64,000 bases of DNA from positions 124,001 to 188,000 of the forward strand of contig CANLWG010000005.1 in the NCBI GenBank assembly GCA_947494715.1, in the 5' to 3' direction. Below, in pieces: positions 36,817 to 59,202 of this stretch. The position numbers and the translations under genes are program-made. This stretch comes from an uncultured Flavobacteriaceae bacterium (lineage in GTDB: Bacteria > Bacteroidota > Bacteroidia > Flavobacteriales > Flavobacteriaceae). Position 1 is the first letter of the stretch. Each line of letters opens with the position of its first letter. The notes below the pieces were generated by a model. The model had not been told where the DNA came from. It ran no database searches and was given only the letters and a program-made list of their open reading frames with translations.

Positions 36817-36830
36817 TGAGCGGGATCAGT
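36817..36830 (-). promoter_or_regulatory. FNR/CRP-type site for the HMA-like/transpeptidase operon
   Basis: The plus strand reads ATGAG-CGGG-ATCAG, one base weaker than the other sites. On the minus strand its centre is 29.5 bp from the first base of a -7 element TAATTTTA (36794-36787). The spacing equals that of the stronger sites. Confidence 0.5.
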
Positions 36831-36855
36831 CTCCTCTAGATCCCTCCTACGACAT

Positions 36856-36869
36856 ATGACCGCCGTCAT
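36856..36869 (+). promoter_or_regulatory. FNR/CRP-type site for the MlaEFD operon
   Basis: This is a perfect palindrome ATGAC-CGCC-GTCAT. The -7 element TAATTTTA (36892-36899) begins 29.5 bp from its centre, so the site is at about -41.5 to a start near 36904. The mlaE ATG is 25 bp further. Confidence 0.65.
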
Positions 36870-36928
36870 TTCCAATGACCCCATTGCTTTTTAATTTTAA
36901 GGTCGGACGTGTCCACGAAAACTGAAAC

Positions 36929-37711
36929 ATGGCACAGGTATTTCAAGTACCAAAAAAGATACGACGGTTCTTTATCGAAATCGGGGAGCTTTCCTTTTTC
37001 GCCGGTCGCTTTTTTAAGGAAACCCTACGGCAGCCGTTCGAATTCAAGGAACTGCTACGGCAATGCTATCAGATGGGAAACCGCTCCATGACCTTGGTCC
37101 TGGTCACAGGTTTTATCATTGGATTGGTATTGACCTTACAATCAAGGCCCACCATGATCCAATTTGGTGCCGAATCATGGATGCCCAATATGGTAGGTAT
37201 TTCCATTGTTAGGGAATTGGGACCTGTTATTACGGCCCTAGTATGTGCAGGTCGGATTGCTTCTGGCATCGGGGCGGAGTTGGGTTCTATGCGGGTAACG
37301 GAACAGATAGATGCCATGGAAGTCTCTGGCACCAATCCTTTCAAATATTTGGTGGTTACACGCATTTTGGCAACGACCTTGATGCTTCCGTTATTGGTCA
37401 TTTTGGGCGATGCCGTGGCCCTTTACGGATCGGCTTTGGTAGAATATTTTAAAGGTGAGGTTTCCTTTCGACTCTATTTCAATACAGTTTTCGATGCCTT
37501 ATCCTATGGCGATTTGATACCCGCCACCATTAAGTCGTTCTTTTTTGGATTTGCCATTGGGTTGGTGGGTTGCTTTAAGGGGTATTACTGTAAAAAGGGA
37601 ACTGCAGGAGTAGGTTTGGCAGCAAATACGGCGGTGGTTTTCACATCGATGTTGCTGTTTGTCATCGATTTTGTAGCGGTTTTTATATCCGATATTTTTT
37701 ATGAACTATGA
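36929..37711 (+). CDS. mlaE: MlaE-type ABC transporter permease
   Basis: The protein has 260 residues with an N-terminal amphipathic part and about five transmembrane helices. Segment VRELGPVITALVCAGRIASGIGAELGSM with a following EQIDAMEVSGTNPF is the MlaE signature. It is the membrane part of the intermembrane phospholipid transport system that keeps outer-membrane lipid asymmetry. Its stop overlaps the ATPase gene by 4 bp. MlaD follows, so this is an mlaEFD operon. No mlaB or mlaC gene is here. Confidence 0.92.
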   Translation: MAQVFQVPKKIRRFFIEIGELSFFAGRFFKETLRQPFEFKELLRQCYQMGNRSMTLVLVTGFIIGLVLTLQSRPTMIQFGAESWMPNMVGISIVRELGPVITALVCAGRIASGIGAELGSMRVTEQIDAMEVSGTNPFKYLVVTRILATTLMLPLLVILGDAVALYGSALVEYFKGEVSFRLYFNTVFDALSYGDLIPATIKSFFFGFAIGLVGCFKGYYCKKGTAGVGLAANTAVVFTSMLLFVIDFVAVFISDIFYEL

Positions 37712-38493
37712 TGAAAGCTCAAAAGGACAAACTGCTACAGGAACAAGGAACCGATACTAGGAAGGTAATGCTGGAAATTAAAGACCTATACAAAAGTTTT
37801 GGCGACAATCATGTTTTAAATGGGTTCAACCTAAAGTTGTACCAGGGGGAAAATTTGGTAGTCATGGGAAAATCGGGCTCTGGAAAATCGGTAATGATCA
37901 AATGCTTGGTCGGTTTAATGCAACCGGACAGGGGCTTTATCTCGGTCATGGGACAGGAAATAAAGACCTTGGATCGCGAAACCTTGGATGTATTACGTTC
38001 CGATATTGGTTTTCTATTTCAGGGAAGTGCCCTCTACGACTCCATGACCGTACGTGAAAATCTGGAATTTCCCTTAAGAAGGCATACTGAGAAAGTGGGT
38101 GTGGTCGCGGACACTGGACCTTTGGTACTGGAAGCTTTGGAAAGTGTGGGTTTGGCCCAAACCATGAACTTGATGCCCGAGGAACTTTCCGGCGGCATGA
38201 AACGTCGCGTAGCACTTGCACGCGCTTTGATCCTAAGACCGAAAATTATTCTTTACGATGAACCCACAAGCGGATTGGATCCTATTACGGCAAAGGAAAT
38301 CATTGAACTTATGCGGCACATACAAAAAAAGTATGACACGTCATCCCTAATCATTACGCATGATGTGGATTGCGCAAGGGTCATCTCCGAACGGATGATT
38401 TTATTGGTAGACGGAATCAATTATGCCGAAGGGTCTTATGAAGAACTTATAACATCAAAGGATCCAAAGGTCGAGGCGTTTTTTAAAAAATAA
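37708..38493 (+). CDS. mlaF: MlaF-type ABC transporter ATP-binding protein
   Basis: The protein has 261 residues. Walker A is GKSGSGKSV, Q-loop LFQGSALYDSM, signature LSGGMKRRVALARAL, Walker B IILYDEPTSGLDP and switch His ITHDVDCA. The 20-residue leader before the nucleotide-binding fold is charged. It energises the MlaE permease encoded in the overlapping upstream gene. Confidence 0.92.
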   Translation: MMKAQKDKLLQEQGTDTRKVMLEIKDLYKSFGDNHVLNGFNLKLYQGENLVVMGKSGSGKSVMIKCLVGLMQPDRGFISVMGQEIKTLDRETLDVLRSDIGFLFQGSALYDSMTVRENLEFPLRRHTEKVGVVADTGPLVLEALESVGLAQTMNLMPEELSGGMKRRVALARALILRPKIILYDEPTSGLDPITAKEIIELMRHIQKKYDTSSLIITHDVDCARVISERMILLVDGINYAEGSYEELITSKDPKVEAFFKK

Positions 38494-38496
38494 ACC

Positions 38497-39480
38497 ATGG
38501 AAAAGACTACTTCAGAAAAAATCAGATTGGGTATTTTTGTCATTTTAGGAACCATTTTGTTGGTACTTGCCGCATACCTCATTGGCAACCAACAAAATCT
38601 ATTCGGTAATACCTATACCATCAATGCGGTCTTTAAAAACGTTAACGGACTTCAAAAAGGCAACAATGTAAGGTATGCGGGCATCAACATCGGTACAGTA
38701 AGCGGTATTGAGATGCAGAACGATACGGCCATACGCGTTTCCATGTTAATACAGGAAAAAATGCGAAAACATATCAAAACTAATGCAATTGCCACTATAG
38801 GTTCCGACGGACTTGTAGGCAGTATGGTCATAAATGTAGTCCCGGGCAATGGTACGGCACCCTTGATACAATCCGGTGATGAGATTCTTGCCATGAGCAA
38901 GATTGCCACCGTTGATATGTTGAATACTTTGAGTGTCACCAACGAAAACGCGGCCCAACTTACCCAAGACCTGCTTAACGTAACCGCTTCCCTCAATAGA
39001 GGGGAGGGCACCTTGGGGCGATTATTGAACGACACCCTCATGGCCAACGATCTACAACAGATGTTGGTCAATCTTAAGAGCGCTAGCCTTGGAGCAAATA
39101 CGACCATAAGTCAACTCAACGACATAGCTAAAAAATTCAATTCCAATGAAAGCATAATGGGCGTGCTCTTGGACGATAGCATTTCTGCGGTTAAAATGCA
39201 GAACATTATTGCACATTTGGAAACTTCGAGCATCGAAATCAAAGATATGTCAAAAGACCTCAACAGGGTGGTCGGAGATATCAAGGGTGGAAAAGGAGCC
39301 CTCAATTATTTGGCAACGGATACCATTTTTGTTTCTCGACTACAAAATACCATGCAAAATGTGGAACAGGGCGTGGAAAGATTCAATCAGAATATGGAGG
39401 CCTTAAAGCATAATTTTTTGACCCGGGGGTATTTTAGGAAGCAGGAAAAACAGGAAAGAAAGGATAAGCGCGAGGAATAA
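38497..39480 (+). CDS. mlaD: MlaD-type MCE domain protein
   Basis: The protein has 327 residues: one N-terminal transmembrane helix (about 10-30), an MCE domain (about 38-118, with VFKNVNGLQKGNNVRYAGINIGTV), then helical repeats and a charged Lys-rich tail. It forms the periplasmic substrate-binding ring of the Mla complex. It starts 3 bp after mlaF. Confidence 0.9.
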   Translation: MEKTTSEKIRLGIFVILGTILLVLAAYLIGNQQNLFGNTYTINAVFKNVNGLQKGNNVRYAGINIGTVSGIEMQNDTAIRVSMLIQEKMRKHIKTNAIATIGSDGLVGSMVINVVPGNGTAPLIQSGDEILAMSKIATVDMLNTLSVTNENAAQLTQDLLNVTASLNRGEGTLGRLLNDTLMANDLQQMLVNLKSASLGANTTISQLNDIAKKFNSNESIMGVLLDDSISAVKMQNIIAHLETSSIEIKDMSKDLNRVVGDIKGGKGALNYLATDTIFVSRLQNTMQNVEQGVERFNQNMEALKHNFLTRGYFRKQEKQERKDKREE

Positions 39481-39606
39481 TCCTTCAAAACAAAAACAGC
39501 TATATCATTAATCAATTTTATTACTATTACTTTGCCACCACATGATAGTATTAAAAATCCTCAAGGAAAAACCGTTCATGATTTCCGAGGTTAAAAGACT
39601 TGTTGG

Positions 39607-40608: not shown

Positions 40609-40736
40609 TAGCGCAAAAAAAAACTAAAACATACCGGTACAAGGACTATTTTGGCGGCAATAAGTATGTATACCATTAAAACCACTATACCAAGGAAATA
40701 AAAAACATTGGGAAGGTTTACGGTATATCTTTTCAT
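40608..40736 (-). pseudogene. N-terminal fragment of the AI-2E transporter, out of frame
   Basis: This is a 42-residue frame with a typical first transmembrane helix (VFYFLGIVVLMVYILIAAKI) that ends at TAA. Adding one base in the A9 run at 40615-40623 would join it to the main body as SFFFALMLNPIVSFF, exactly the expected PerM order. It is therefore a one-base deletion in a homopolymer. Confidence 0.7.
40615..40623 (+). repeat. Nine-A homopolymer at the frameshift point
   Basis: Nine consecutive A (T9 on the coding strand) sit where the two frames of the AI-2E transporter separate. Such tracts mutate by slippage and are also error-prone in sequencing. Confidence 0.8.
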
Positions 40737-40899: not shown

Positions 40900-41790
40900 C
40901 TAAAGAGCAAGAGAATACACATTGTTTTCCTGTTCCTTTATTTCCATTCGAATCCTTTTTTGGTTGAACGCCAATAACGGAATGGACACCTCACCTTCCA
41001 TAGTACGTACCAAATCCCTACGGAACAATTTATCATATATTGAGGAATGTTCCCGTTCCATCATCACCAGCATATCGGCACGTTCTTTCCTAATGTAGGA
41101 ATGTAATCCGGATTCCACATCCTCGGCTTCGGACATACTAAAAACAATTTCAGGATACGATATTCGTTGTCTTACCTCGCGCTCAAACCATTTCATATAC
41201 TGATCTGCATCGGATTCGGTCTTAAGCGGTATATGTACCACTTTGATGAGAGCACCATAGGACTCTGCAATTTTCACCAAACTATCAAGTGCGTAAATAT
41301 CGGCTTCCTCAAAATCCGTAGCGTAGATAAGGGTAGAAAGCCCGTGATAATAAATATCATTTGGCAATACCAATAAAGGAATATCTATTTTGTTCAGAAG
41401 CTCGTTTGCAATGTTTCCCGAAAAAATCCCCCTAAGGGTATATTCATCTTTCATGCCCACAATAATAAGATCCGGTTCCAAGGTCCATGCAGCCGATAGT
41501 ATGCTCTTGGCCACAAAATTACTTTCGACAACCTGTATTTTCACTGGATCCAAATACAGTTCATTTTTTAAATGGGTGCTACAGTAATTTGTAACGATTT
41601 CCTTTTGTTCTTGATGCAGTCTTTCTTTCAATTGTTTAGGAGGTCGTATCGTCGCGACTGTAACGGGAGGAAGTTCGTATACATGGAAAACATGTAGCTC
41701 AGCGTCCATAGCACTGCTAAGGCGGTACGCATAGCGCAATGCAGGAGCGGAATTCCGAGAACAATCCGTAGCGTATAGTACTGTTTTCAT
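40900..41790 (-). CDS. Universal stress protein, two tandem UspA domains
   Basis: The protein has 296 residues from the ATG at 41790 (MKTVLYATDCS); 25 extra in-frame residues upstream have no start in context. Both halves begin with a YATD motif: VLYATDCSRNS (first) and LIYATDFEEADIYALDS (second). The G-x2-G-x9-G(S/T) ATP motif is not intact in the first domain (VGMKDEYTLRGIFSGN). Its promoter carries a perfect FNR-type palindrome. Confidence 0.88.
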   Translation of the reverse strand: MKTVLYATDCSRNSAPALRYAYRLSSAMDAELHVFHVYELPPVTVATIRPPKQLKERLHQEQKEIVTNYCSTHLKNELYLDPVKIQVVESNFVAKSILSAAWTLEPDLIIVGMKDEYTLRGIFSGNIANELLNKIDIPLLVLPNDIYYHGLSTLIYATDFEEADIYALDSLVKIAESYGALIKVVHIPLKTESDADQYMKWFEREVRQRISYPEIVFSMSEAEDVESGLHSYIRKERADMLVMMEREHSSIYDKLFRRDLVRTMEGEVSIPLLAFNQKRIRMEIKEQENNVYSLAL

Positions 41791-41841
41791 TGCTGATATA
41801 TTTAAGTAGTGTAAAATTATGCCACAGCAAACTATCCGTAA

Positions 41842-41855
41842 ATGACCATGGTCAT
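41842..41855 (-). promoter_or_regulatory. FNR/CRP-type site for a universal stress protein
   Basis: This is the perfect palindrome ATGAC-CATG-GTCAT. On the minus strand the -7 element TAATTTTA (41819-41812) begins 29.5 bp from its centre. The start codon follows 17 bp after the predicted start point near 41807. Confidence 0.65.
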
Positions 41856-41883
41856 TTAGGCGCATTTTTTAGGTTGACCTCAC

Positions 41884-43384: not shown

Positions 43385-43396
43385 AATATTGTTGTT

Positions 43397-43993: not shown

Positions 43994-44130
43994 TTTTTGG
44001 ATTCAAATGTGGCATCTACCTTTTTTGTTTTTTGATAAATTGTGAGCCCTCACGATGTTGGATTCTCCTGCCAAGGCATCTCAATAAATGTTAACACGTT
44101 TAAAGGTAATTGAGGGAGTTCTTAATCAAA

Positions 44131-44144
44131 ATGACCAAAATCAT
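44131..44144. promoter_or_regulatory. FNR/CRP-type site between divergent operons
   Basis: The site is ATGAC-CAAA-ATCAT. Towards the CDP-alcohol transferase the -7 TACCTTTA (44108-44101) begins exactly 29.5 bp from its centre. Towards the universal stress protein the candidate TACCCATC (44168) is weaker and 30.5 bp away. One site may serve both directions. Confidence 0.55.
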
Positions 44145-44224
44145 TTGGACAATTATTCCCAAACTGATACCCATCATTTTCATCTTGAAATCATTTTTTT
44201 AGCTTCATATTAAATTTAAAAGTG

Positions 44225-45076
44225 ATGGATACTATTCTATATGCAACCGACTATTCCCAGAATTCCGTAGCGGCCCTGCATTTTGCCTATGCGTTGAGCA
44301 AGGAACTGAATGCGGAACTGATGGCCCTTCATGTATTTGATTTACCCCTAACTTTGGCCAGCACCATCTCCTATACCTATTCACGCAAAGAAGTAAGAGC
44401 CTTCGGGGACCATCGTGAAAAACTGATCGCCTTTTGTAACGAACATTTAAGAAACGAAAATGAACCCCTTGCCATTACCTGGAAAGTGGACGAAGGAAAG
44501 CCTGCCTCCGAAGTCATCATCAAAAATGCCAAAGAACTGGAGGTGAACCTCATTGTAGTGGGGACTAGAGGTGGAAGTCGTATCAAGGAAGTATTTTTGG
44601 GAAGTACCACCAGCGCATTGATCAATTCCGCGCCCTGTCCTATTTTAGCCATACCCGAAGATGCCGATTTCCATGGAATCAGAAAAATGGTATATGCTAC
44701 TGATTTTGAAGGAACCGATATCTTCGCCATCGAAAAAACGGTAGAATTGGCAGAACCTTTTGAAGCCGATATCCATCTGGTGCATGTATCTGAAAAGCCC
44801 CGTCATACCAGCGAGGACCAAATGAAATGGTTCAGGAATATGTTACGACATAAAGTGTCCTACGAGAACATCCAATTTGAACTTCGTTTTGGTGAGGATG
44901 TTTTTTTGACCCTACAAAAATATGTCGATGAAATTGAGCCCGATTTGGTCGCCATGTTGGAACGGGAAGGTCATAGCCTTATTAAAAGCCTTCGCCATCG
45001 CGATTTGGTCAAACGTATGAAAAGTGAAGGGCATATACCACTATTGAGTTATCATAAGAAGAATGTTGTGGTTTAA
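44225..45076 (+). CDS. Universal stress protein, two tandem UspA domains
   Basis: The protein has 283 residues from the ATG at 44225 (an in-frame GTG precedes it by one codon). The first domain has the full ATP motif GTRGGSRIKEVFLGST; the second begins MVYATDFEGTDIFAIEK. It is homologous to the neighbour at 40900-41790. Such proteins bind ATP and support survival under starvation or oxygen limitation. Confidence 0.88.
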   Translation: MDTILYATDYSQNSVAALHFAYALSKELNAELMALHVFDLPLTLASTISYTYSRKEVRAFGDHREKLIAFCNEHLRNENEPLAITWKVDEGKPASEVIIKNAKELEVNLIVVGTRGGSRIKEVFLGSTTSALINSAPCPILAIPEDADFHGIRKMVYATDFEGTDIFAIEKTVELAEPFEADIHLVHVSEKPRHTSEDQMKWFRNMLRHKVSYENIQFELRFGEDVFLTLQKYVDEIEPDLVAMLEREGHSLIKSLRHRDLVKRMKSEGHIPLLSYHKKNVVV

Positions 45077-45176: not shown

Positions 45177-45809
45177 ATGTTCAAGAATAGAATTGACGCG
45201 GGAATTCAATTAGCGGAAAAACTGCTCAGGTTCAAAAATGAAAATGTAGTGGTCTTGGCCATACCTAGAGGTGGACTCCCCATAGGTTCTATTGTCGCCA
45301 AAACCTTAAACGCTCCTTTGGATGTAGCCTTGACCAAAAAAATAGGACACCCTGACCATAAAGAATACGCCATTGGAGCGGTTAGCCTGGACGATGTTAT
45401 ACTCACCAATGCCTTTGGAGTGCCCCAAGATTACATTGATAAGGAAATTGTACGAATACGAAAAAGACTTGGACAACGCTACGAGCAATATTATGTGAAT
45501 AGGTGCCCACAAAGCCTAAAGGATAAAACAGTGATCATTGTCGATGATGGTGTAGCAACGGGTAATACCATTCTTGCCACAATAGAACTGGTAGCCCATC
45601 AAAAGCCCAAAAAAATAATAGTCGCCGTACCCGTGGCACCGAGCGTTGTCATCAGAAAATTTGAAACTATTCCCGATGTTACCGAAACCATCTGCTTACA
45701 GACCCCCTATAATTTTCAGGCCGTAGGACAGTTCTATAAAGTGTTCGGGCAGGTATTCGATCAAAGGGCCGTACAATTGTTGGAAGAAACTAATAATGTT
45801 AACCTTTAA
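45177..45809 (+). CDS. Phosphoribosyltransferase family protein
   Basis: The protein has 210 residues with the PRPP-binding motif VIIVDDGVATGNT (about 120-132) and the N-terminal PRGGLPIGSIVA segment. It is the type found in universal-stress clusters (similar to the mycobacterial Rv0571c). Acceptor base unknown. Its last 11 bp overlap the 3' end of the convergent rtcB gene. Confidence 0.85.
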   Translation: MFKNRIDAGIQLAEKLLRFKNENVVVLAIPRGGLPIGSIVAKTLNAPLDVALTKKIGHPDHKEYAIGAVSLDDVILTNAFGVPQDYIDKEIVRIRKRLGQRYEQYYVNRCPQSLKDKTVIIVDDGVATGNTILATIELVAHQKPKKIIVAVPVAPSVVIRKFETIPDVTETICLQTPYNFQAVGQFYKVFGQVFDQRAVQLLEETNNVNL

Positions 45810-47250
45810 TAACCGCTACCGGCTTCAATTTTGCTACTTTTTTTGCTATCCCCGAAGCACTTACAACATCAACTACCGCGCCTACGTCCTTGTAAGCTAT
45901 CGGAGCTTCTTCCGCAATGCCCCTAAAGGAACCAGCTTCGACAAAAATACCCTGTTCCCTAAGCTTTTCTTTTAGTACAGGAGCATTTACCTGTCGTTTG
46001 GCCGCACTTCTTGAAAGTCGTCTTCCCGCACCATGACAACATGATCCAAAGGTCATTTCATGACTTTTGGAAGTGCCCGCAAGAACATAGGAACAAGTGC
46101 CCATGCTTCCTGGAATGATTACCGGTTGTCCGACTTCCCTATACTCAGGCGGTAACCCTTCGGATCCTGGACCAAAGGCACGTGTTGCACCTTTACGATG
46201 AACAATAACCTTTTGAGGTGTACCTTCAATAGTATGCATCTCGATCTTTGCAATGTTATGGGCCACATCATAAAGCAGCCCTAAGTCCCCTACCTTTTTG
46301 CCAAAAACATTTTCCCAGGCTTTTTTAACTTCCCAGGAAATGATTTGTCTGTTGCACCAGGCAAAATTAGCAGCTGCACACATCGCTTTAAAGTATTCCT
46401 GCCCTTCCTTTGAATTAAAAGGGACACATGTTAATTCCCTATCCGGTACATTTATCCCATATCGTGACATGACCATCATCATTTTGCGAATATGGTCCGT
46501 TGCTACTTGATGTCCCAGACCTCGGGAACCTGTATGAATCAAAAGGACTATCTGACCTTTTTGCAAACCATAGGTCTCGGCAATTGTGTCATTGTATGTT
46601 TCTTCCACAAAATCGACCTCAACAAAATGATTGCCCGAACCTATGGTACCCAATTGGTCCAACCCTCTATTTTTGGCCATTGTGGAAACAAAAGCGGGAT
46701 CTGCATCGCTCAATTTTCCATTACTCTCCATACGGGATAGGCTTTCCCTTGTTCCATATCCGTTATCTACGGCCCATTTGGCACCCTCCGCAAGTACTTC
46801 GTCCAGTTGTTCAGTAGTGAGTTTAATTTTTCCTCCCTTTCCCATTCCTGCAGGGACATGCGCATACAATTCCTTCGATAGAGCTTCTATGGCTTCCCTA
46901 TTGTCCTTTATCTGAAGTTGGGATGTAAGTAGCTGTACCCCACAGTTGATATCATAGCCTATTCCTCCTGGCGAAATAACCCCTTCCGGATACTCCATTG
47001 CCGCTACCCCCCCAATTGGAAAACCATAGCCCTCATGCACATCTGGCATCACCATTGATGCCTTTCTAATGCCCGGAAGTGTAGCAACGTTGACTAACTG
47101 ATTAAGCGACCTATCCTCGATAATGGCATCAAGAAGGCTTTCCGAGGCAAGGATTTGGGCAGGAACACGCATGCCTTCCCTAAAGGATTTTGGAATCTCC
47201 CACAGATAGTCCTCCAACTTGGTTATATGTTCTTTTTGGACTTTTTTCAC
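45799..47250 (-). CDS. rtcB: RtcB-type RNA ligase
   Basis: The protein has 483 residues. Family segments include VMPDVHEGYGFPIGGVAA, GGIGYDINCGVQLL (metal ligands), SGNHFVEVDFVEE and GTCSYVLAGTSKSHEMTFGSCCHGAGRRLSR, which holds the guanylylated His region. It joins 2',3'-cyclic-phosphate or 3'-phosphate ends with 5'-OH ends and needs GTP and Mn. It follows an archease gene by 76 bp in the same direction, and archease is its activator. Confidence 0.92.
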   Translation of the reverse strand: MKKVQKEHITKLEDYLWEIPKSFREGMRVPAQILASESLLDAIIEDRSLNQLVNVATLPGIRKASMVMPDVHEGYGFPIGGVAAMEYPEGVISPGGIGYDINCGVQLLTSQLQIKDNREAIEALSKELYAHVPAGMGKGGKIKLTTEQLDEVLAEGAKWAVDNGYGTRESLSRMESNGKLSDADPAFVSTMAKNRGLDQLGTIGSGNHFVEVDFVEETYNDTIAETYGLQKGQIVLLIHTGSRGLGHQVATDHIRKMMMVMSRYGINVPDRELTCVPFNSKEGQEYFKAMCAAANFAWCNRQIISWEVKKAWENVFGKKVGDLGLLYDVAHNIAKIEMHTIEGTPQKVIVHRKGATRAFGPGSEGLPPEYREVGQPVIIPGSMGTCSYVLAGTSKSHEMTFGSCCHGAGRRLSRSAAKRQVNAPVLKEKLREQGIFVEAGSFRGIAEEAPIAYKDVGAVVDVVSASGIAKKVAKLKPVAVIKG

Positions 47251-47326
47251 ATCTCTAAATCCTATTAATTACTTTTTTAAAGAAAAAGTGCACCCAAATA
47301 GCGTTCCCGTTTTGGCACTAAAAAAT

Positions 47327-47737
47327 TTAAAGATCAAAAATGATACTGGTTTCCAAACAACCCTGGGTATTTCTTGATATGGCCGCCTCGTGATAGGTCA
47401 CTCCCTTGATTTCCTCATCAAAATGGTCAAACCATATACCATATAACTGGGCATCGACTTTTGTGGGGGAGAGTTCCGAAAAGTAAACATGGCAGAAAAG
47501 GGTCTTCTGTATATAGGAAAGGGCCAGCACATCGGATAAAAAATCAATCAATAGGCAGGTAGTATCATTGGAGGATATCACTATTCTCATGGAACAATCA
47601 TAATGATTAACGGCATCGCAACACCCTTCTTTGAGAATTTGGGCCATTTCCTTTAGGCTATTCTTAAAAAGTTCTTGGAGTGTATACCCTTTTACCTGTA
47701 TCCCAATATCCGCTATATGTTCCATGGATTGTCCCAT
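47327..47737 (-). CDS. Archease
   Basis: The protein has 136 residues. MEHIADIGIQVKGYTLQELFKNSLKEM (the HxADxGI segment) and VTYHEAAISR near the C-terminus are archease hallmarks, and the acidic SIIFDL end keeps the metal-binding Asp. Archease helps RtcB guanylylation and turnover. Start could be residue 1 or 5. A weak FNR-like site (47810-47823) precedes it. Confidence 0.85.
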   Translation of the reverse strand: MGQSMEHIADIGIQVKGYTLQELFKNSLKEMAQILKEGCCDAVNHYDCSMRIVISSNDTTCLLIDFLSDVLALSYIQKTLFCHVYFSELSPTKVDAQLYGIWFDHFDEEIKGVTYHEAAISRNTQGCLETSIIFDL

Positions 47738-48714: not shown

Positions 48715-48812
48715 AACTATGGATTTATGTTAATACTACTTAAGTAAATACTGGATGAACGTTCTTCCTATGTTCGCCGGATCAAATGTATTCCGGTTGT
48801 GATGGTCCCACA

Positions 48813-48826
48813 ATGACTTGAATCAT
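48813..48826 (-). promoter_or_regulatory. FNR/CRP-type site for the PepSY-like/dodecin operon
   Basis: ATGAC-TTGA-ATCAT is centred 29.5 bp from a perfect -7 TACATTTG (48790-48783) on the minus strand. The predicted start point is near 48778, leaving a leader of about 63 bp. Confidence 0.65.
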
Positions 48827-48903: not shown

Positions 48904-49281
48904 TTAGGAAAGCTTTTTTCTTAGTAAACACTTTTTAATCGAAGTCAAAAGATCCTCAAGTTCCAAAGGTTTTATCAAGTAATCATCTGCGCCTAGATCC
49001 AGTCCTTTTTGGACATCCGTCTTTTCAGCCTTGGCGCTAAAGAAAATGAAAGGAATTCTCTTATGGTTAGGGTGCTTCCCCAAAGTGGCAAGTAAAGTTA
49101 GTCCATCCATTTCGGGCATTAAGATATCACATATAATAAGATCCGGAATAAAACTGGCAAGTTCTTTAAGACCTTCCCTTCCGTTTTTGGCCTTAATGAC
49201 TTTGTAACCTTCAAGCTCTAAAAGTTCAGCTGTATTCTCCAATATACCGATATGATCTTCAATAAGTAAGATAGTGGTCAT
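48904..49281 (-). CDS. Single-domain response regulator (CheY-like receiver)
   Basis: The protein has 125 residues from the ATG at 49281; a TTG 21 bp upstream is in frame. Acidic pair Glu8/Asp9, phospho-acceptor Asp52 (LIICDILMP) and Lys in YLIKPLELE are intact. It lacks an output domain. No kinase is adjacent. Confidence 0.88.
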   Translation of the reverse strand: MTTILLIEDHIGILENTAELLELEGYKVIKAKNGREGLKELASFIPDLIICDILMPEMDGLTLLATLGKHPNHKRIPFIFFSAKAEKTDVQKGLDLGADDYLIKPLELEDLLTSIKKCLLRKKLS

Positions 49282-49445
49282 TGGCCGGCGATTTTCATGC
49301 AATCAAATCCTAAGAAAGTAAGTAGCATTCCATAAATATAATATTTCTCGAAAGAATAATCCTTTGTTTAAGTAAGACTCCTTTACGGCAAATCATACAA
49401 TACCAAAATAAAACCAAATATTTCTTCGGTAAAGAAGCTATTTTA

Positions 49446-49459
49446 CTGATCTACGTCAT
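49446..49459 (+). promoter_or_regulatory. FNR/CRP-type site for the PNPOx-like gene
   Basis: CTGAT-CTAC-GTCAT. The -7 TACTTTTA (49482-49489) begins 29.5 bp from its centre, and the ATG at 49520 is about 26 bp after the predicted start. It also resembles canonical FNR sequence. Confidence 0.6.
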
Positions 49460-49519
49460 ATTGAAAGAAATTCTTCTCCCCTACTTTTATTTCATAAATA
49501 ATACAATTATCGAAGGGTT

Positions 49520-49978
49520 ATGATAAAAGATTTAGGTTCTGGGGAATGCATTCAACTGCTCTGCAACAATTACATTGGCCATTTGGCCTACATTGCCGGC
49601 GAAAGCCCTTTTGTAATTCCCATTACCTATTACTATGATCAATCGCACAACAGTATTATCAGTTATTCTTTGGAAGGACATAAAATTGATGCGATGCGAA
49701 AAAACCGATCAGTATCCTTGGAAGTCGATGAAATTGAATCCGTAAATCAATGGAAATCCGTTTTGGCCCATGGCAAATTTGAAGAACTCAGCGGTATCGA
49801 TGCCAAGAACCTACTTCATGAATTTTCAAAAGGGGTAAAGGAAATCATCAACCGTAAGGAGACAAAGAAGTTGCAATTCATTTCTGAATTCTCAAGCAAA
49901 CTTGAGTCAGAAGGTACCTCCCCGATAGTGTATCGAATTCAACTATTGGAAATTACGGGAAAACAAAGAGTAGACTAA
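49520..49978 (+). CDS. Pyridoxamine 5'-phosphate oxidase-like flavin-binding protein
   Basis: The protein has 152 residues of the FMN-binding split barrel, of the NimA-like group (IGHLAYIAGESPFVIPITYYYDQ, then ISYSLEGHKIDAMRKNRSVSLEVDEI). Such proteins may reduce nitro-compounds or act as flavin/deazaflavin enzymes. Transcribed alone from an FNR-type promoter. Confidence 0.85.
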   Translation: MIKDLGSGECIQLLCNNYIGHLAYIAGESPFVIPITYYYDQSHNSIISYSLEGHKIDAMRKNRSVSLEVDEIESVNQWKSVLAHGKFEELSGIDAKNLLHEFSKGVKEIINRKETKKLQFISEFSSKLESEGTSPIVYRIQLLEITGKQRVD

Positions 49979-50102: not shown

Positions 50103-50116
50103 ATGACACAGGTCAT
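50103..50116 (+). promoter_or_regulatory. FNR/CRP-type site for the OmpA/PfkB operon
   Basis: ATGAC-ACAG-GTCAT. The -7 TTCCTTTG (50139-50146) begins 29.5 bp from its centre. Predicted start near 50151 and the ATG at 50181. Confidence 0.6.
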
Positions 50117-50180
50117 TGTACAAAACCCCTACCCCATTTTCCTTTGCAAAAGCATTTATGGTAAACTAAAATCCAAAGCG

Positions 50181-51051: not shown

Positions 51052-52014
51052 ATGAACAAGACCATAACCCTTACCATGAATCCCGTAGTGGATAAAAACA
51101 CTTCCGTAGCTGGTATTATGCCCAATAAAAAACTGCGTTGTGCTTCGCCTGCCTATTTCGCTGGCGGAGGTGGCATTAATGTATCCCGAGCTCTTAAAAA
51201 ATTAGGAGGAGAATCGCTTTGCATATATATGGCAGGCGGGCCAACGGGTACTCATTTGCAGAAACTGATATCCGATGAAGGTATTGAACAAAACGTAATC
51301 CAAATCGAGGGGTGGACGCGTGAAAACCTTTCCGTAACAGATACCAACACGAATTTGCAATACCGTTTTGGGGTGCCGGGACCAGAGATAAAAAAAGAAG
51401 AGTGGGAACGAGTGCTATCACTGCTGGAAAGGCGGTTAAAACAAGACGATTTTTTAGTCGCCAGTGGTAAATTACCTCCAGGTGCGCCCAATGATTTTTA
51501 TGTGAGAGCTTCAAAAATCGTAGACACAGTTGGTGCAAAACTTATTTTGGACACTTCTGGTGATGCACTACTGCCAAGTATGCAGGCCAACATATTTTTA
51601 ATGAAACCCAATTTGGGGGAATTAAGTACAGTTTTATGGGTGAAATCCATTTCGGCGATGCAACTGGAATCCCTTGCCGAGCGTTTTTTGAGGGAAAATA
51701 CTTGTGAGATACTTGTGGTGTCGCTGGGTGCAAAAGGTGCTTTATGGGCTACCCCTACCGAAATGGAGCACATACCGGCACCGACCGTACAACAAAAAAG
51801 CACTATTGGTGCCGGGGACAGTATGGTGGCGGGTATGCTATTCAGCTTAATGCATGGTAAATCGTTAAGTGATACCGTAAAATACGGAGTAGCCTGTGGT
51901 ACGGCGGCCACCCTACATCCCGGCACACAACTGTGCAATAAAAAAGATGCGGACGCACTATACGATTGGATAAAAAACAATAGTGTTAAAAAAGTAATAA
52001 AAGTCCCAAACTGA
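51052..52014 (+). CDS. PfkB-type sugar kinase (1-phosphofructokinase family)
   Basis: The protein has 320 residues from the ATG at 51052. Sugar-binding GGGGINVSRALKKLGG, and the C-terminal anion hole and base KSTIGAGDSMVAGMLFSL are intact. Members phosphorylate fructose-1-P, fructose-6-P or tagatose-6-P. It is coupled to the OmpA gene (7 bp). PfkB kinases are part of dormancy regulons elsewhere. Its stop codon lies within the FNR-type site that precedes the non-coding array. Confidence 0.88.
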   Translation: MNKTITLTMNPVVDKNTSVAGIMPNKKLRCASPAYFAGGGGINVSRALKKLGGESLCIYMAGGPTGTHLQKLISDEGIEQNVIQIEGWTRENLSVTDTNTNLQYRFGVPGPEIKKEEWERVLSLLERRLKQDDFLVASGKLPPGAPNDFYVRASKIVDTVGAKLILDTSGDALLPSMQANIFLMKPNLGELSTVLWVKSISAMQLESLAERFLRENTCEILVVSLGAKGALWATPTEMEHIPAPTVQQKSTIGAGDSMVAGMLFSLMHGKSLSDTVKYGVACGTAATLHPGTQLCNKKDADALYDWIKNNSVKKVIKVPN

Positions 52015-52024
52015 CCTGGGTCAT
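52011..52024 (+). promoter_or_regulatory. FNR/CRP-type site before the first small RNA
   Basis: CTGAC-CTGG-GTCAT overlaps the pfkB stop. The -7 TATCTTAG (52047-52054) begins 29.5 bp from its centre, giving a predicted start near 52059. No gene follows for over 800 bp. Confidence 0.6.
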
Positions 52025-52058
52025 TTTGAATAGGGATATGCTACCCTATCTTAGCCTT

Positions 52059-52277
52059 CGATTAAAAGTGATATAGTTCTTTGAAAATGGTAAACAGACT
52101 TATTATTCGTGGGGAGTAGTAAGGTCAAGCAAAGGAAGAGGTTACAGATACCCGTTATACCTTTTGAGTGCTGAAAGGATTTAGCAATAAATTCAAGTAA
52201 GGGCCAGTGTAAGTGGTCATCAGGTTGAATAACATCTTCTAGGAGACCGGAATATTTCGGTATTCCGGTTTCTTTTT
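52059..52277 (+). ncRNA. Putative FNR-regulated small RNA 1
   Basis: About 219 nt run from the predicted start to a strong terminator. No open frame longer than ten codons with a plausible start fits (ATG at 52087 ends after MVNRLIIRGE). The promoter arrangement is the same as for neighbouring protein genes, so the transcript should be induced together with them. Sequence family unknown. Confidence 0.5.
52246..52277 (+). terminator. Intrinsic terminator of small RNA 1
   Basis: Nine-base-pair stem ACCGGAATA / TATTCCGGT with loop TTTCGG, followed by TTCTTTTT. No coding region crosses it. Confidence 0.75.
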
Positions 52278-52291
52278 AGAAATACAGGGCA

Positions 52292-52471
52292 TTGATCGAT
52301 AGCATCGTTAGGTGGTAGCGATCATAGTAGAGAAAAGGATGCTGTCAATACCCAAATTAATAGATTAACCCATTTTAGCGATAAAGTGGTTTAAAAGATT
52401 GATAGAGAGTATTGATGAATTTCATTTTTTTATGGGAAAACAGGAAGTTTCGGCTTCCTGTTTTTTTGGCT
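52292..52471 (+). ncRNA. Putative small RNA 2 (start uncertain)
   Basis: The stretch between the first and second terminators has no gene. A degenerate site TTGAT-CGAT-AGCAT (52292-52305) has a TA at the expected 29.5 bp (52328), but the rest of the -7 is poor, so the start (near 52340) is uncertain. It could also be read through from small RNA 1. Confidence 0.35.
52437..52467 (+). terminator. Intrinsic terminator of small RNA 2
   Basis: Eleven-base-pair stem AAAACAGGAAG / CTTCCTGTTTT with loop TTTCGG, the same loop as the first terminator, followed by a T run. Confidence 0.8.
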
Positions 52472-52485
52472 TTGATCAAGATCAA
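52472..52485 (+). promoter_or_regulatory. Canonical FNR-type box before the third non-coding segment
   Basis: TTGAT-CAAG-ATCAA is the textbook FNR palindrome. The nearest -7-like TAATGCCT begins 28.5 bp from its centre, one base off the other promoters. Confidence 0.55.
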
Positions 52486-52519
52486 ATGATTAAGGTTTCC
52501 TAATGATAATGCCTTGGCA

Positions 52520-52823
52520 ATCATAAAATGGGTACTCAACGACTTCCCTAATCTTCAAATTCCGGATTTTATGTAGTTAGTGCATTTCCATAAAGATTCC
52601 ATTCAAAACTGAGGATAGCTGGACGCCGGATGAAGATTCTTAGGGAAAGGTCTTTTTGGTCACAAGACGATAAAGGCCGGAAAGGTTCGAGTTATTTTTT
52701 GCCAAGACCATACCCCATAGCATTCTTAGTGATAAGATGACCTAAGGATAAATCGGAAGCATAAAATGAATCGAACATTTCAAAAGGAAACAGGAGGCCT
52801 ATGGTCTCCTGTTTCTGTTTTTT
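52520..52823 (+). ncRNA. Putative small RNA 3 or regulated leader of the DUF302 gene
   Basis: About 300 nt without a convincing gene, ending in a strong terminator 72 bp before the DUF302 start. Two short frames (at 52529 and 52766) have no conserved look. The transcript may be an independent small RNA or a long leader with attenuation in front of DUF302. Confidence 0.4.
52787..52823 (+). terminator. Intrinsic terminator of the third segment
   Basis: Perfect ten-base-pair stem GAAACAGGAG / CTCCTGTTTC with a nine-base loop, followed by TGTTTTTT. Confidence 0.8.
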
Positions 52824-52894
52824 AGTTTCCCCTAGCCTTACCAAAAGAGGGAGATCATTATCGAATTAAACAATCTTTGATCGCAAAAAAATAT

Positions 52895-53351: not shown

Positions 53352-53365
53352 CTGACCAAAATCAT
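53352..53365 (+). promoter_or_regulatory. FNR/CRP-type site before the flavin reductase operon
   Basis: CTGAC-CAAA-ATCAT. The -7 TAATTTCA (53388-53395) begins 29.5 bp from its centre, so the predicted start point coincides with the ATG at 53400. Confidence 0.6.
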
Positions 53366-53399
53366 TACAAAACCCCATCCATAGCCATAATTTCATGGT

Positions 53400-54011
53400 A
53401 TGGAAACATTACGAAAAGACCTATTCACTTCCTTGGACTTGAACCTTCCTATTTGGGAACGCGTATTTACAGTTGCTCCATTGGTTATCATAGGCACCAA
53501 GGAGGATAAAGGATACAATCTTGCACCAAAACACATGGCTACTCCCCTGGGTTTTGGTAATTATTTTGGTTTTGTATGTACCCCAAGGCATGGCACCTAT
53601 AACAATGTAAAAGAAAATAGAGGATTTACCGTAAGTTTTCCCAAACCGGACCAAATCATAACTACTTCTTTGAGCGCATCCCCCAGGAAAGATATCATTT
53701 CAAAATCACAGGGTATCGTGGAGGCACTATCCATTGTAAAAGCCAACGGTATGGATGCCCCGTTGATCAAGGATGCCTATTTATATTTAGAATGCGAACT
53801 ATACAAAATTATTGATGGTTTTGACCAAAATAGCATCATTACAGGTATTGTAAAGGTGGCCTATATAGATAAGGACTATCTACGGGTATCGGAAAGGGAC
53901 GAACAGGAGCAATTATATAAACATCCCTTATTGGTCTACATAGCTCCTGGCCGTTTCGCCAAGGTTTCCGAAACCTTCAATTTCCCGTTTCCCAAAGATT
54001 TCAAAAAATGA
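53400..54011 (+). CDS. Flavin reductase-like split-barrel protein
   Basis: The protein has 203 residues of the flavin reductase/DIM6-NTAB fold (APKHMATPLGFGNYFGFVCTPRHGTYNNVKENRGFTVSFPKPDQ, and LECELYKIIDGF). It likely binds FMN and reduces flavin or an unknown substrate. The start coincides with the predicted transcription start, so the mRNA may be leaderless. The stop overlaps the peptidase start by 4 bp. Confidence 0.85.
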   Translation: METLRKDLFTSLDLNLPIWERVFTVAPLVIIGTKEDKGYNLAPKHMATPLGFGNYFGFVCTPRHGTYNNVKENRGFTVSFPKPDQIITTSLSASPRKDIISKSQGIVEALSIVKANGMDAPLIKDAYLYLECELYKIIDGFDQNSIITGIVKVAYIDKDYLRVSERDEQEQLYKHPLLVYIAPGRFAKVSETFNFPFPKDFKK

Positions 54012-55177: not shown

Positions 55178-55184
55178 TCTAGAT

Positions 55185-56204: not shown

Positions 56205-56355
56205 CAGGGGTGCTTAAAAATTTTCGTTTTTTGCCGATGTAAAGAAGCTTTTTGCGAGTTATTTTTAAGTAAGTTTAATGGAACCCGGACTATTGAAATC
56301 AGTATGGTTTTCGTAGGTTTCAGAAATTTCCTGTTCCAAACCATTGTTGTTGACA

Positions 56356-57015
56356 ATGAATTTTAGCATAGATACACCCAAACCGGTTATTCTGTTACTT
56401 CCCTTACTGGGTATGGGCCTGTTCGTTGTTTTATACATCATTGCCGCCTTGAACTATCCAGGGGGATCCTTTGCCATGCCGGATAAAAACGGCTTTAGTT
56501 TTTGGAACAATTACCTGTGCGACCTATTGGATCACTATGCAATTAATGGAGAACTAAATTCCGCTCGCTATTTTGCAAGGGCCTCTTTGGCCGTACTTTG
56601 TGCAAGCTTGCTACTATTATGGGCTTATTTACCTCTATTTTTTACGGCTAAAAGTTATAACAGAAGTATTATGTGGCTATCGGGCATCCTATCCTTGGGG
56701 ACTACTTTTTTTTTGACTTCCGGAACCCATGATATTGCCTTACGAATAGCAGGTATTTTTGGGGTTTTGGCATTTATAACCTGTTTTGTAGAGCTTTTTA
56801 AGATGGGATACTTCAAGCTTTTCATATTTGGAGTTGTCTGCCTGTTTATTTTTTTGGTCAATTACTACAGTTATGAAACCGGTGCCTTTATACGTTTGCT
56901 TCCCATCATCCAGAAATTGACTTTTATCTGTTGCATTCTTTGGTTTTTGTTTTTGGATATTTCCTTTTACAAAAAACTAAAATCTACTTCCGCTGAATAT
57001 AATAACCCAAATTAA
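56356..57015 (+). CDS. Integral membrane protein, six predicted TM helices
   Basis: The protein has 219 residues from the ATG at 56356 (TTG codons precede it). Six hydrophobic helices, with a polar section (PGGSFAMPDKNGFSFWNNYLCDLLDHYAIN) between the first two that may be extracellular. It resembles DUF998-type proteins in layout only. No FNR-type site is visible upstream. Confidence 0.6.
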   Translation: MNFSIDTPKPVILLLPLLGMGLFVVLYIIAALNYPGGSFAMPDKNGFSFWNNYLCDLLDHYAINGELNSARYFARASLAVLCASLLLLWAYLPLFFTAKSYNRSIMWLSGILSLGTTFFLTSGTHDIALRIAGIFGVLAFITCFVELFKMGYFKLFIFGVVCLFIFLVNYYSYETGAFIRLLPIIQKLTFICCILWFLFLDISFYKKLKSTSAEYNNPN

Positions 57016-57260
57016 CTTACATTAAGCAACATCTTTCCAAATCCCTATAAAATAAGTACTTTTAACGGTTTTTTCGAGTCCGATTTTTTTTGTTCTCCCA
57101 AGTAATTTTCGTAACTTTAAAAGACCAACCCCTCTACCTTAGGGAAGCGTTACGACTCTATTCCTAAAAGAGCATCCAGGGCCAAGGCCTCCATTACATG
57201 AACATTCAATTGTTCGGAATTTTCGTAAAAAATTGATTTATCTAACTTAAGTATATCGCC
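57016..57260. other. Intergenic stretch before the SPFH gene
   Basis: This 245 bp is AT-rich with TAACTTTA near 57112 as a possible -7 element. I see no palindrome, gene or repeat in it. Confidence 0.3.
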
Positions 57261-58007
57261 ATGAACCCCTTGTTCCTATTTTCCATCATTCTCGTCCTAT
57301 TCCTGTTGGCAGGAATACGCATTGTATTCGAATATAAAAGAGCCTTAAAATTCCGTTTTGGCAAGTACATTAAAACTTTGCAACCTGGATTTCGATGGAT
57401 TATTCCCCTTGTGGAGACCATACAAGTTGTAGATATCCGGGTAATTACTATCAACGTTGTTTCCCAAGAAGTCATGACCGAGGACAATGTGCCTTGTAGT
57501 ATTGACGGCGTGGTCTTCTTTAAGATCAATGACCCCGAAAAAGCCGTATTGGAAGTTGAGGAATTCTCCTTTGCGATTACGCAACTTTCACAGGCCGCCC
57601 TAAGGGATGTATGTGGAAAGGTAGAGCTGGACACCATCCTTTCCAAAAGGGAAGAAATGGGTAAGAACATCAAATCCATAGTAGAACAGGAAACCCATGA
57701 ATGGGGTATAGAGATAATCGATGTAAAAATAAAGGACATCCAATTGCCTGAAAACATGAGAAGGATGATGGCGAACCAGGCCGAAGCGGAACGATCCAGA
57801 AGGGCCAGGATTATTTTAGCGGTAGCGGAACAACAGGCAGCTGGGAAATTACTGGAGGCAGGAAAGCTTATAGACCAATCTCCCTCTGCCATTAAGCTAA
57901 GACTGTATCAGACGCTATCCAATATTGCTGCCGAAAAGAATTCCACAATCTTGTTCCCATTTCCAGAGGAGGTACTTCCGCGAAAGTCCAAAGAGACGGA
58001 TTCGTGA
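57261..58007 (+). CDS. SPFH/Band 7 (slipin-type) membrane protein
   Basis: The protein has 248 residues: one N-terminal membrane helix (about 3-20), SPFH domain (about 25-190, with EYKRALKFRFGKYIKTLQPGFRWIIPLVE and ISVVSQEVMTEDNV-like strands), then the coiled coil typical of stomatin/slipin (MMANQAEAERSRRARIILAVAEQQA). These form membrane microdomain rings and often work with an NfeD protease, which is not present here. A long minus-strand open frame in the same place is a shadow. Confidence 0.88.
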   Translation: MNPLFLFSIILVLFLLAGIRIVFEYKRALKFRFGKYIKTLQPGFRWIIPLVETIQVVDIRVITINVVSQEVMTEDNVPCSIDGVVFFKINDPEKAVLEVEEFSFAITQLSQAALRDVCGKVELDTILSKREEMGKNIKSIVEQETHEWGIEIIDVKIKDIQLPENMRRMMANQAEAERSRRARIILAVAEQQAAGKLLEAGKLIDQSPSAIKLRLYQTLSNIAAEKNSTILFPFPEEVLPRKSKETDS

Positions 58008-58060
58008 TAAACGGTATCCGTTCCGTTTTTCATTCACTTCGTCCCGAATTACAATACATC

Positions 58061-58522
58061 CTAGGGGATGAAATATACTTTTTTTGTACTTGACAGGTGT
58101 GCGACAAAAACTATGAGCACCCCGAGTACCGAATAGACAAAATGAAGAATACCGAATCCGATGCCGAACAAAAGCTGCATATCGATCCAAAGTATGAGCA
58201 AAAGACCTATATGGTAGGAAAACGTCCAGGACCAGTGCCGATTTTTATAGGGATTCAATTTTTTGACCCATTTCAAGTCCCTTTTTGTAATCAACCCATA
58301 AGTAGTAATCATCGGGAAAATCCCAAGGAATAGGAATAGAAACAATCCTGGAACCAAAAAATTTGAAAAAGGCGATTGCTCCAACTGCTCTAGAATTTCA
58401 GGAGGAAATCCTATGCCCACACCGGAGGGATCCATCACCAAGCTTAATCCACCCCAAATTGCACCAATTGCAAGAAAAAAGACCAATCCTATCAACAGGT
58501 AACTTGAAAACGTTTTTTTCAT
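58061..58522 (-). CDS. Hypothetical membrane protein, four TM helices
   Basis: The protein has 153 residues with helices at about 7-30, 55-80, 100-120 and 125-145 and short charged ends. It follows the flavodoxin gene by 32 bp in the same direction and is probably co-transcribed, so it is likely part of the FNR-type regulon. No motif is recognised. Confidence 0.6.
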   Translation of the reverse strand: MKKTFSSYLLIGLVFFLAIGAIWGGLSLVMDPSGVGIGFPPEILEQLEQSPFSNFLVPGLFLFLFLGIFPMITTYGLITKRDLKWVKKLNPYKNRHWSWTFSYHIGLLLILWIDMQLLFGIGFGILHFVYSVLGVLIVFVAHLSSTKKVYFIP

Positions 58523-58554
58523 TTTGATTTATTCATGAAAATGGAAAGCCCTCT

Positions 58555-59085
58555 TTAAATGACAAGTTGTACCTCATACTCATCTGTTTGTTTTTCTCCG
58601 ATCCATTCCAAAATGGGGCCAATACTCGATTTATCCATATAATTGAACCCCTCGGACATACGTTTTTTGATGTCCGGATCTTTCTCGACCCGGGCCGTAA
58701 ATTTCAAGGAAAATCGAATATACCAAGGTAACTCTTCCAATGCCAACCTCCCTCGCAAGGGCACATAGTCTATTTGCCTCAAAATTTCCTTGGAAAAACT
58801 ATTTTCCAGCCATTTTCGCAAATCGGGATGGCCTGGTTCGGCACCGGAGACAGTAAATAACAAAATAGGCTTGTTTTTGATCTTAGGCCAATTCTTATTT
58901 AGCCATTTTTGAATTGTGGGCCTCGAAATCATAATGGAACTACCTAAAACAAGAAGATCATACTCCTCGGGGTTTGGATTTTCCTTGTTCAAATCAAAAA
59001 CAGGAAAACTACATCTTTCGTTTATCCAATAGGCATACTTTTTTGTACTTCCGAACTTTCCGGTATAGAATATCGCTGCTTTCAT
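58555..59085 (-). CDS. Flavodoxin-fold protein, HemG-like
   Basis: The protein has 176 residues. The N-terminal FMN loop is YTGKFGSTKKYAYWI, followed by VLGSSIMISRPTIQKWL and LLFTVSGAEPGHPD. This pattern matches menaquinone-dependent protoporphyrinogen oxidase HemG and related flavodoxins, though haem genes are not nearby. Regulation by an FNR-type site with -7 TATATTGT fits an anaerobic redox role. Confidence 0.8.
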   Translation of the reverse strand: MKAAIFYTGKFGSTKKYAYWINERCSFPVFDLNKENPNPEEYDLLVLGSSIMISRPTIQKWLNKNWPKIKNKPILLFTVSGAEPGHPDLRKWLENSFSKEILRQIDYVPLRGRLALEELPWYIRFSLKFTARVEKDPDIKKRMSEGFNYMDKSSIGPILEWIGEKQTDEYEVQLVI

Positions 59086-59140
59086 CGGTTTGACCTTATA
59101 ATTAAACAGTACAATATATTGATATCAGTATGCCTTTAAA

Positions 59141-59154
59141 ATGACCTTGATCAT
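59141..59154 (-). promoter_or_regulatory. FNR/CRP-type site for the flavodoxin operon
   Basis: ATGAC-CTTG-ATCAT. On the minus strand TATATTGT (59118-59111) begins 29.5 bp from its centre. The start codon at 59085 is about 21 bp after the predicted start. Confidence 0.6.
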
Positions 59155-59188
59155 CCAAACCCACTTATATGAAGTTGATTGAAGGTCA

Positions 59189-59202
59189 TTGACTAAAATC
59201 AT
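59189..59202 (+). promoter_or_regulatory. FNR/CRP-type site for the serine hydrolase unit
   Basis: TTGAC-TAAA-ATCAT. TACCTTAC (59225-59232) begins 29.5 bp from its centre, giving a predicted start near 59237. It lies back to back with the site at 59141. Confidence 0.55.

Follow-up and report, generated by a model that had tools for sequence, protein, structure and literature searches.

Probable operator sites at a fixed promoter position

Which regulator drives the run of stress genes in this 64,000-nucleotide stretch of an uncultured Flavobacteriaceae genome? We address this question for the whole stretch, hereafter the window (C5:124001-188000, 40% G+C, in a genome of 5.97 Mb), and in particular for its part 36817-59202, where an original prediction had placed twelve CRP/FNR-type palindromes serving as class II activator sites. 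Our analysis indicates that the sites are probably class II operators shared by an FNR-like protein and by response regulators in which a receiver domain (REC) is fused to a CRP-type output, and that one of the latter, fusion 1, would be the main regulator of the stress island. What this adds is a probable regulator type, a hybrid of phospho-switch and CRP/FNR activator, and its probable place in the genome.

We scanned both strands for NTGAYN4RTCAN paired with the -7 element TANNTTTR, allowing at most one mismatch in all. With the palindrome centre exactly 29.5 bp from the -7 element, 11 sites were found in the window, whereas 35 other spacings averaged 0.83 each (Poisson P = 1.5e-9). Ten of the 11 lie in 36817-59202; the eleventh lies outside, at 61633 on the minus strand. 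Two further sites in 36817-59202, at 59154 (minus) and 59189 (plus), keep the 29.5-bp spacing with two mismatches each in the -7 element. The predicted twelve sites had not been individually listed and could not be matched one to one to these. The palindrome alone (RTGAYN4RTCAY, at most one mismatch) is not significantly over-represented in the window (31 versus 24.3 expected, with as many in 9 of 100 shuffles). We therefore dropped this count as sole evidence, and the case rests on the spacing.

Across the whole genome, palindrome-to--7 gaps of N10 to N36 (27 spacings) yielded 78 matches, of which 44 have the 29.5-bp spacing. The other spacings averaged 1.31 matches each, with five at one base more and four at one base less (P = 4e-42). 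The prediction was to be given up if correctly spaced sites proved equally common in random intergenic DNA of the genome; the comparison of spacings comes near to that test, and the prediction withstood it.

The promoter context was assessed in 48 sites drawn from the window and 14 fetched genome stretches. In 29 of the 48 sites a start codon follows the first T of the -7 element by 20-50 bp, and in 34 by no more than 60 bp; four sites have no open reading frame (ORF) by the rule used, and one of these four has a 281-aa ORF 20 bp behind it. A start-mapping study in Flavobacterium psychrophilum assigns the sigma-A box, TAnnTTTG, to positions -12 to -5 (PMC9723704). With the operator centre 29.5 bp from the first T of TAnnTTTR, and that T at -12 as in this related organism, the operator is predicted to be centred at -41.5, the geometry of class II activation. 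TTG occurs anywhere in -34 to -30 in only 8 of 48 sites, and there is no G consensus there; the -33 element is therefore usually lacking. Two marks of a class II CRP/FNR promoter are present, namely a TGA..TCA dyad operator, with its 44 exact-spacing matches genome-wide, and no good upstream (-33) element. Taken together, the spacing, the published -7 position and the scarcity of TTG argue for the proposed class II activator at about -41.5 in place of the -33 element, and the class II reading of these sequences is well supported. The first base of the 48 sites is A in 27, C in 20, G in one and T in none; the weak site at 59189, outside this set, starts with T.

Conservation of the sites

Alignment of 23 island sites to a congener (G002) showed no insertions or deletions between palindrome and -7 element in any of the 23. 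Substitutions were found at 2 of 207 positions in the palindrome core and 2 of 138 in the -7 element, versus 13 of 92 in the four central bases (N4) and 64 of 506 in the 22-bp spacer; the flanks had 63 of 456 and 81 of 635 (13-14%). Core and -7 element together thus changed at about 1% of positions, compared with about 13% for spacer and N4 (P = 8e-12).

In the more distant genomes G003, G013 and G009, some genes hold a site at the same place with differing inner bases. The MlaE site is retained in G003 and G013 and, with one mismatch, in G009; the Hsp20 site occurs with one mismatch in all three; those of YtxH and a WG-repeat gene (both named by eye) are retained in G003 and G013, and that of the pyridoxamine-phosphate-oxidase-like (PPOX) gene in G013. 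The orthologue is present but the site absent or doubtful for FtsH and REC in G003, DUF302 and UPRTase in G013, and PRTase in G009. Among 31 related genomes, the MlaE gene is found in six, in seven copies, and all seven are preceded by the same geometry (six exactly, one with a mismatch). Two equal-scoring MlaE copies with the same promoter site lie in one genome, on G013:C16 and G013:C33 (L196 and L200), and reflect either duplication or assembly redundancy.

Candidate regulators

A search of the genome for the cNMP-binding domain (CNB, PF00027) gave 21 places, none of them in C5:124001-188000. The prediction that no regulator gene lies in the window, so that it acts in trans, is thus correct in the strict sense, but the gene for fusion 1, the probable regulator, lies only about 22 kb beyond the right end of the window, next to Hsp20. 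Since it is on the same contig and inside the same site cluster, the regulator is probably better regarded as local. Fusion 1 (356 aa, C5:209735-210802) consists of REC, cNMP_binding and HTH_Crp domains (PF00072, PF00027 and PF13545), as does fusion 2 (C1:555476-556519). A third protein, FNR-like and 234 aa long (C20:77750-78451), is encoded near cbb3 oxidase genes. Among the translated members of the 21 places, to which the comparison of recognition helices extended, these three proteins have the helix ATE-[ST]-x-I-R in common, and no other has it.

Each fusion gene stands behind a histidine-kinase gene; the C5 kinase has several PAS domains, one GAF, HisKA and HATPase, and its C1 counterpart was identified as a kinase by eye. 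Site clusters enclose both fusions, at C5:160-212 kb and C1:543-562 kb. The phospho-acceptor D52 and K104 are present in seven aligned fusions and 14 named homologues, and the C5 and C1 fusions have the make-up of a response regulator with CRP output, their REC domain, with its Asp and Lys, being fused to CNB and HTH_Crp. With arms of [A/C]TGAY rather than TTGAT, the sites favour the distinct regulator that had been suspected, for which the REC-cNMP_binding-HTH_Crp fusion is the best candidate from its sequence. Adjoining fusion 1 and Hsp20 are genes for an 844-aa protein with HExxH and OTU-like stretches and for an AAA-like ATPase (L049:6422-13917, C5:212.4-220 kb). By eye, we take this neighbourhood to resemble that of a contractile injection system.

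Near the gene for the FNR-like protein, a site with one mismatch precedes the gene of a heavy-metal P-type ATPase, and a further site stands 255 bp ahead of a COX1-FixO cbb3 oxidase gene. In all 20 aligned orthologues (L001:1429-2133; L081-L099), the protein has C-x2-C and the C122 equivalent and no third N-terminal Cys. The C20 protein thus has three, not all four, of the cluster cysteines of FNR; a three-cysteine cluster ligand set is possible. In a tree of 51 rows, built from a quick search and with long branches among nine other paralogues, the fusions (22) and the FNR-like proteins (20) each formed one group, sister to each other (support 82), and their recognition helices are alike. We rejected I-R in the helix as a universal mark of fusions, as it is present in only 11 of 14 named ones.

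Those 14 full-length fusions came from a homologue search of which the best 80 loci were kept. All are from Bacteroidota, their hosts including Flavobacteriaceae, Crocinitomicaceae, Sphingobacteriaceae, Chitinophagaceae and Leadbetterellaceae. The 234 kb around them contain 14 exact 29.5-bp sites, at 7 of the 14 loci, versus 0.17 per other spacing; the 66 receiver-only loci (1.1 Mb, many phyla), a weak control, contain one. In 5 of the 14 loci the fusion gene is followed within 36 bp by the start of a site (two with a mismatch), and two of these five sites precede a gene judged by eye to encode a protein like a universal stress protein (USP), as is also seen in our genome's own C1 cluster.

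Regulator content and site number across genomes

In the first set of 31 relatives, an FNR-like hit was defined by at least 36% identity and a fusion by full length. Eight genomes (G006, G012, G023 and G025-G029) have neither regulator and 0-3 sites each, and a reversed-pattern control also gave 0-3 matches per genome. G009 has two fusions and 24 sites, its FNR-like hits being only distant paralogues. Fusion 1, the MlaE gene and the island sites (the last by eye, from its 25 sites) are absent together from the congener G001, which still has fusion 2 and its cluster.

The second set comprised 118 genomes of the order, some of them also in the first, scanned with a stricter pattern that demanded TCAT. 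The 56 genomes with neither regulator had 6 sites in 72.6 Mb (0.08/Mb), and the 46 with only an FNR-like protein had 198 in 165.6 Mb (1.20/Mb). Two genomes with fusions only, G054 and G096 (7 and 9 sites), gave 16 in 6.3 Mb (2.54/Mb), and the 14 with both regulators 258 in 64.1 Mb (4.03/Mb). In this sample, 59 of the 62 genomes having either regulator show the exact activator position.

Composition of the central four bases

We counted G+C in N4 for all 44 sites of our genome, all 24 of G009, all 36 of G007 and G010, seven more genomes with only an FNR-like protein, all 27 of G003 and, from the G013 island, 19 sites. Outside these counts stand the remainder of the 36 sites of G013; G008, G011, G019-G022 and G024; G015, which has both regulators; G006, G012 and G028, which have neither; and the sites of G001 and G002. 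N4 G+C was 19/48 in the window island and its continuation, 14/32 in the fusion-1 island of G003 and 36/96 in G009. It was 7/96 in our genome's remaining sites and 10/76 elsewhere in G003. In genomes with only an FNR-like protein, it was 2/144 for G007 and G010 and 23/280 for the seven others, or 25/424 for the nine together. Base composition alone does not account for the low N4 values, since the 23 bp that lead up to the -7 element in the same promoters have 23-45% G+C; taken singly, G016 and G030 showed no significant difference between N4 and the 23 bp. On a simple reading of these sequences, the FNR-like protein would want A/T in N4 and fusion 1 would not.

Proposed mechanism and alternatives

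From the geometry, conservation, co-occurrence and domain make-up observed, we infer regulator binding, phosphorylation, a signal and activation as follows. In Bacteroidota promoters of the sigma-A type, operators at -41.5 would bring about class II activation, with a regulator dimer replacing the -33 contact and thereby fixing the spacing to the -7 element. Half-site and geometry would be common to two related CRP/FNR kinds: the FNR-like protein, which would use sites with A/T in N4 to control the cbb3 oxidase genes among others, and the REC, cNMP_binding and HTH_Crp response regulators, each behind a histidine kinase in its own cluster. The stress island (USPs, Hsp20, FtsH, BON and flavoproteins) would be run mainly by fusion 1, probably upon phosphorylation of REC by its kinase; the signal is likely to be low oxygen or low energy.

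Several observations weigh against this division of labour. The genomes that carry neither regulator are small ones, for the most part of other families, and ancestry confounds the counts, so the co-occurrence of sites and regulators is a correlation. Three of the 46 genomes with only an FNR-like protein have no site at all, and G004, with an FNR-like protein of 47% identity, has 5 sites versus 3 in the control. Fusions stand without an FNR-like hit in only three genomes (G009, G054 and G096), where a divergent FNR may lie below the cut-off. The N4 preference is not a clean rule, given the low G+C in our genome's own C1 cluster around fusion 2 (4/32) and in the G013 island (15/76); we accordingly rejected the idea that N4 composition cleanly marks each fusion, and dual control of sites by a fusion and the FNR-like protein is possible. 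Three of the 14 named fusions have S-R instead of I-R in the helix. A rival view is that every site is bound by the FNR-like protein or by some other stand-alone paralogue of CRP/FNR, and that the fusions are bystanders or have other targets. In its favour, half-site and geometry are the same, genomes with only the FNR-like protein keep 1.2 sites/Mb, and G010, without any fusion, has a site before MlaE. In G009, moreover, a stand-alone CNB protein (C24:155436-155969, L190:11436-11969) lies in one site cluster; it is 25% identical to the FNR-like query, has a like helix (E-T-V-I-R) and a site 73 bp behind it, so the sites of G009 are not attributable to fusions alone, and on its sequence this CNB/CRP-like protein is a possible third regulator kind for the same sites. 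We nevertheless consider a single stand-alone binder unlikely. Sites persist where there are fusions and no FNR-like hit (24 in G009, 7 and 9 in G054 and G096), the island N4 has the G/C that is avoided in genomes with only the FNR-like protein (25/424), and fusion 1 and the island are both gone from the congener G001.

Operators near -41.5 can also repress in some families, and the palindromes might be repressor or other-class operators whose constant spacing comes from overlap with a -33 element. That seems very improbable here, because TTG in -34 to -30 is found in only 8 of 48 sites, because base-pair-exact spacing without indels is a demand of activation through polymerase contacts, and because site presence tracks CRP/FNR genes. 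Chance or a compositional artefact of AT-rich promoter DNA, for which the lack of palindrome enrichment in the window might speak, is refuted to near certainty by the spacing peak (44 of 78 matches at one of 27 spacings), the reversed-pattern control (0-3 per genome) and the contrast of 1% versus 13% substitution.

Shared class II operators, with fusion 1 as main regulator of the island, thus remain our preferred explanation. More tentatively, and with rather less than even confidence, these sequences could point to a widespread phosphorylation-gated CRP of Bacteroidota that combines the steps of FixJ and FixK in one protein, accompanies a stress island like those of DosR and lxa, and shares its half-site and exact -41.5 geometry with the FNR-like protein, N4 helping to decide the binder. 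The analysis offers a testable code for Bacteroidota promoters, in which the activator stands at an exact distance from an unusual -7 element, and names the REC-CNB-HTH regulator type; genomes with the FNR-like protein only, fusions only, both or neither form a natural set for studying how related regulators divide a half-site.

Individual sites in the window

Predicted targets in the window and its neighbourhood include genes for USPs, OmpA (with PfkB behind), PPOX-like protein, flavin reductase, flavodoxin and MlaE, and further ones for CDP-alcohol transferase, FtsH, BON, DUF2267 and Hsp20. ATGACCGCCGTCAT with TAATTTTA at 29.5 bp (36856-36899, plus) forms the promoter of the MlaE permease gene (36929-37711), its core and -7 element identical in G002; a weaker site, CTGATCCCGCTCAT (one mismatch) with TAATTTTA at 29.5 bp (36786-36829, minus), lies 281 bp before the YkuD gene (36512-35577). 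Two Usp genes have promoter sites: ATGACCATGGTCAT with TAATTTTA (41812-41855, minus) for the gene starting at 41790, and CTGATACCCATCAT with TAGCTTCA (one mismatch; 44164-44207, plus) for that at 44222-45076. ATGATTTTGGTCAT with TACCTTTA (44101-44144, minus) is found 115 bp before the CDP-alcohol phosphatidyltransferase gene (start 43993). Adjoining RtcB RNA ligase and archease genes lie inside the stress island at window positions 45799-47737 without a 29.5-bp site of their own. At up to two mismatches, no such site was found within about 220 bp upstream of the RtcB, PRTase, DUF302 and orphan REC genes, and none of the 48 tabulated sites is assigned to archease.

Further right, ATGATTCAAGTCAT with TACATTTG (48783-48826, minus) is the promoter site of a gene without a Pfam match (48714-48205), and CTGATCTACGTCAT with TACTTTTA (49446-49489, plus) that of the PPOX gene (49520-49978). 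Between them, the orphan receiver domain (48904-49302, minus), which lacks its own 29.5-bp site, is 53% identical to the REC of the fusion, and the protein may compete for the fusion's kinase. The OmpA gene (start 50181), and perhaps also PfkB behind it, has ATGACACAGGTCAT with TTCCTTTG (one mismatch; 50103-50146, plus). CTGACCTGGGTCAT with TATCTTAG (one mismatch; 52011-52054, plus) lies at the pfkB stop, with no ORF start of more than 36 aa in the next ~650 bp. This site and its -7 element, kept in G002, face about 800 bp without a clear ORF (window positions 52047-52877), where a non-coding RNA or leader is possible; an Rfam search of the window gave no match, including behind this site.

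CTGACCAAAATCAT with TAATTTCA (one mismatch; 53352-53395, plus) places the -7 T 12 bp before the flavin-reductase-like gene (53400-54011). The two sites with two mismatches in the -7 element are ATGATCAAGGTCAT with TATATTGT (59111-59154, minus), in the promoter of the flavodoxin gene (start 59085), and TTGACTAAAATCAT with TACCTTAC (59189-59232, plus), before a 60-aa ORF and a beta-lactamase-family gene (59427-60635); the latter site is weak, and its -7 element is changed in G002. Beyond 36817-59202, ATGACAATGGACAT (one mismatch) with TATATTTG (61590-61633, minus) lies 118 bp before the gene at 61479-60787.

Comparison with known systems

FNR and ANR class II promoters of Pseudomonadota carry a palindromic N4 operator at -41.5, where the activator replaces the upstream sigma contact. 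The sites described here share the N4 palindrome and probably this position, and the genome's own FNR-like protein is likewise encoded near cbb3 oxidase genes. By contrast, the arms are [A/C]TGAY rather than TTGAT, the promoters belong to a Bacteroidota sigma factor with TAnnTTTG, and three of the four FNR cysteines are present. The arms of a strict FNR regulon, TTGAT-N4-ATCAA, were not seen, as no first base in the 48 sites is T. The best PDB match of the FNR-like protein is 2gau (CNB and HTH_Crp, E = 4e-28; no REC in the match), for which we know of no function or site. One study assigned CRP/FNR homologues of Flavobacteriales instead to a MalR-like carbon response (PMC8510549). None of the titles and abstracts searched describes a REC-CNB-HTH regulator or the 29.5-bp geometry.

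In FixLJ-FixK, an oxygen kinase and its response regulator act ahead of a CRP/FNR activator. Here too, a CRP/FNR-type activator, probably of low-oxygen genes, is coupled to a kinase and a response regulator; a study in Burkholderia sets a FixK homologue below FixLJ (PMC6127331). Unlike in that cascade, REC and CRP output are in one polypeptide, which would save one transcription step, and a heme-PAS domain is not part of the likeness.

DosR and OsdR have another DNA-binding type, and a DosR-type regulon is run by a NarL-type response regulator. Here, the effector domain is HTH_Crp rather than NarL-type. The DosR and OsdR regulons also use another site, and the likeness of the island to them is one of gene content. 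The island resembles lxa and the DosR/DevR and OsdR dormancy regulons in its USP-rich gene set with a small heat-shock protein, and OsdR and its kinase are encoded among their USP targets (PMC6127331, PMC5069765). The low-oxygen-activated (lxa) locus of Burkholderia, likened to DosR in its own paper, shares with the island, beyond USPs and a small heat-shock protein, genes for phosphofructokinase, for a BON protein and for a flavin/nitro reductase (PMC6127331). Because the target set resembles this low-oxygen locus and DosR, low oxygen or energy stress is by analogy the likeliest signal for the island.

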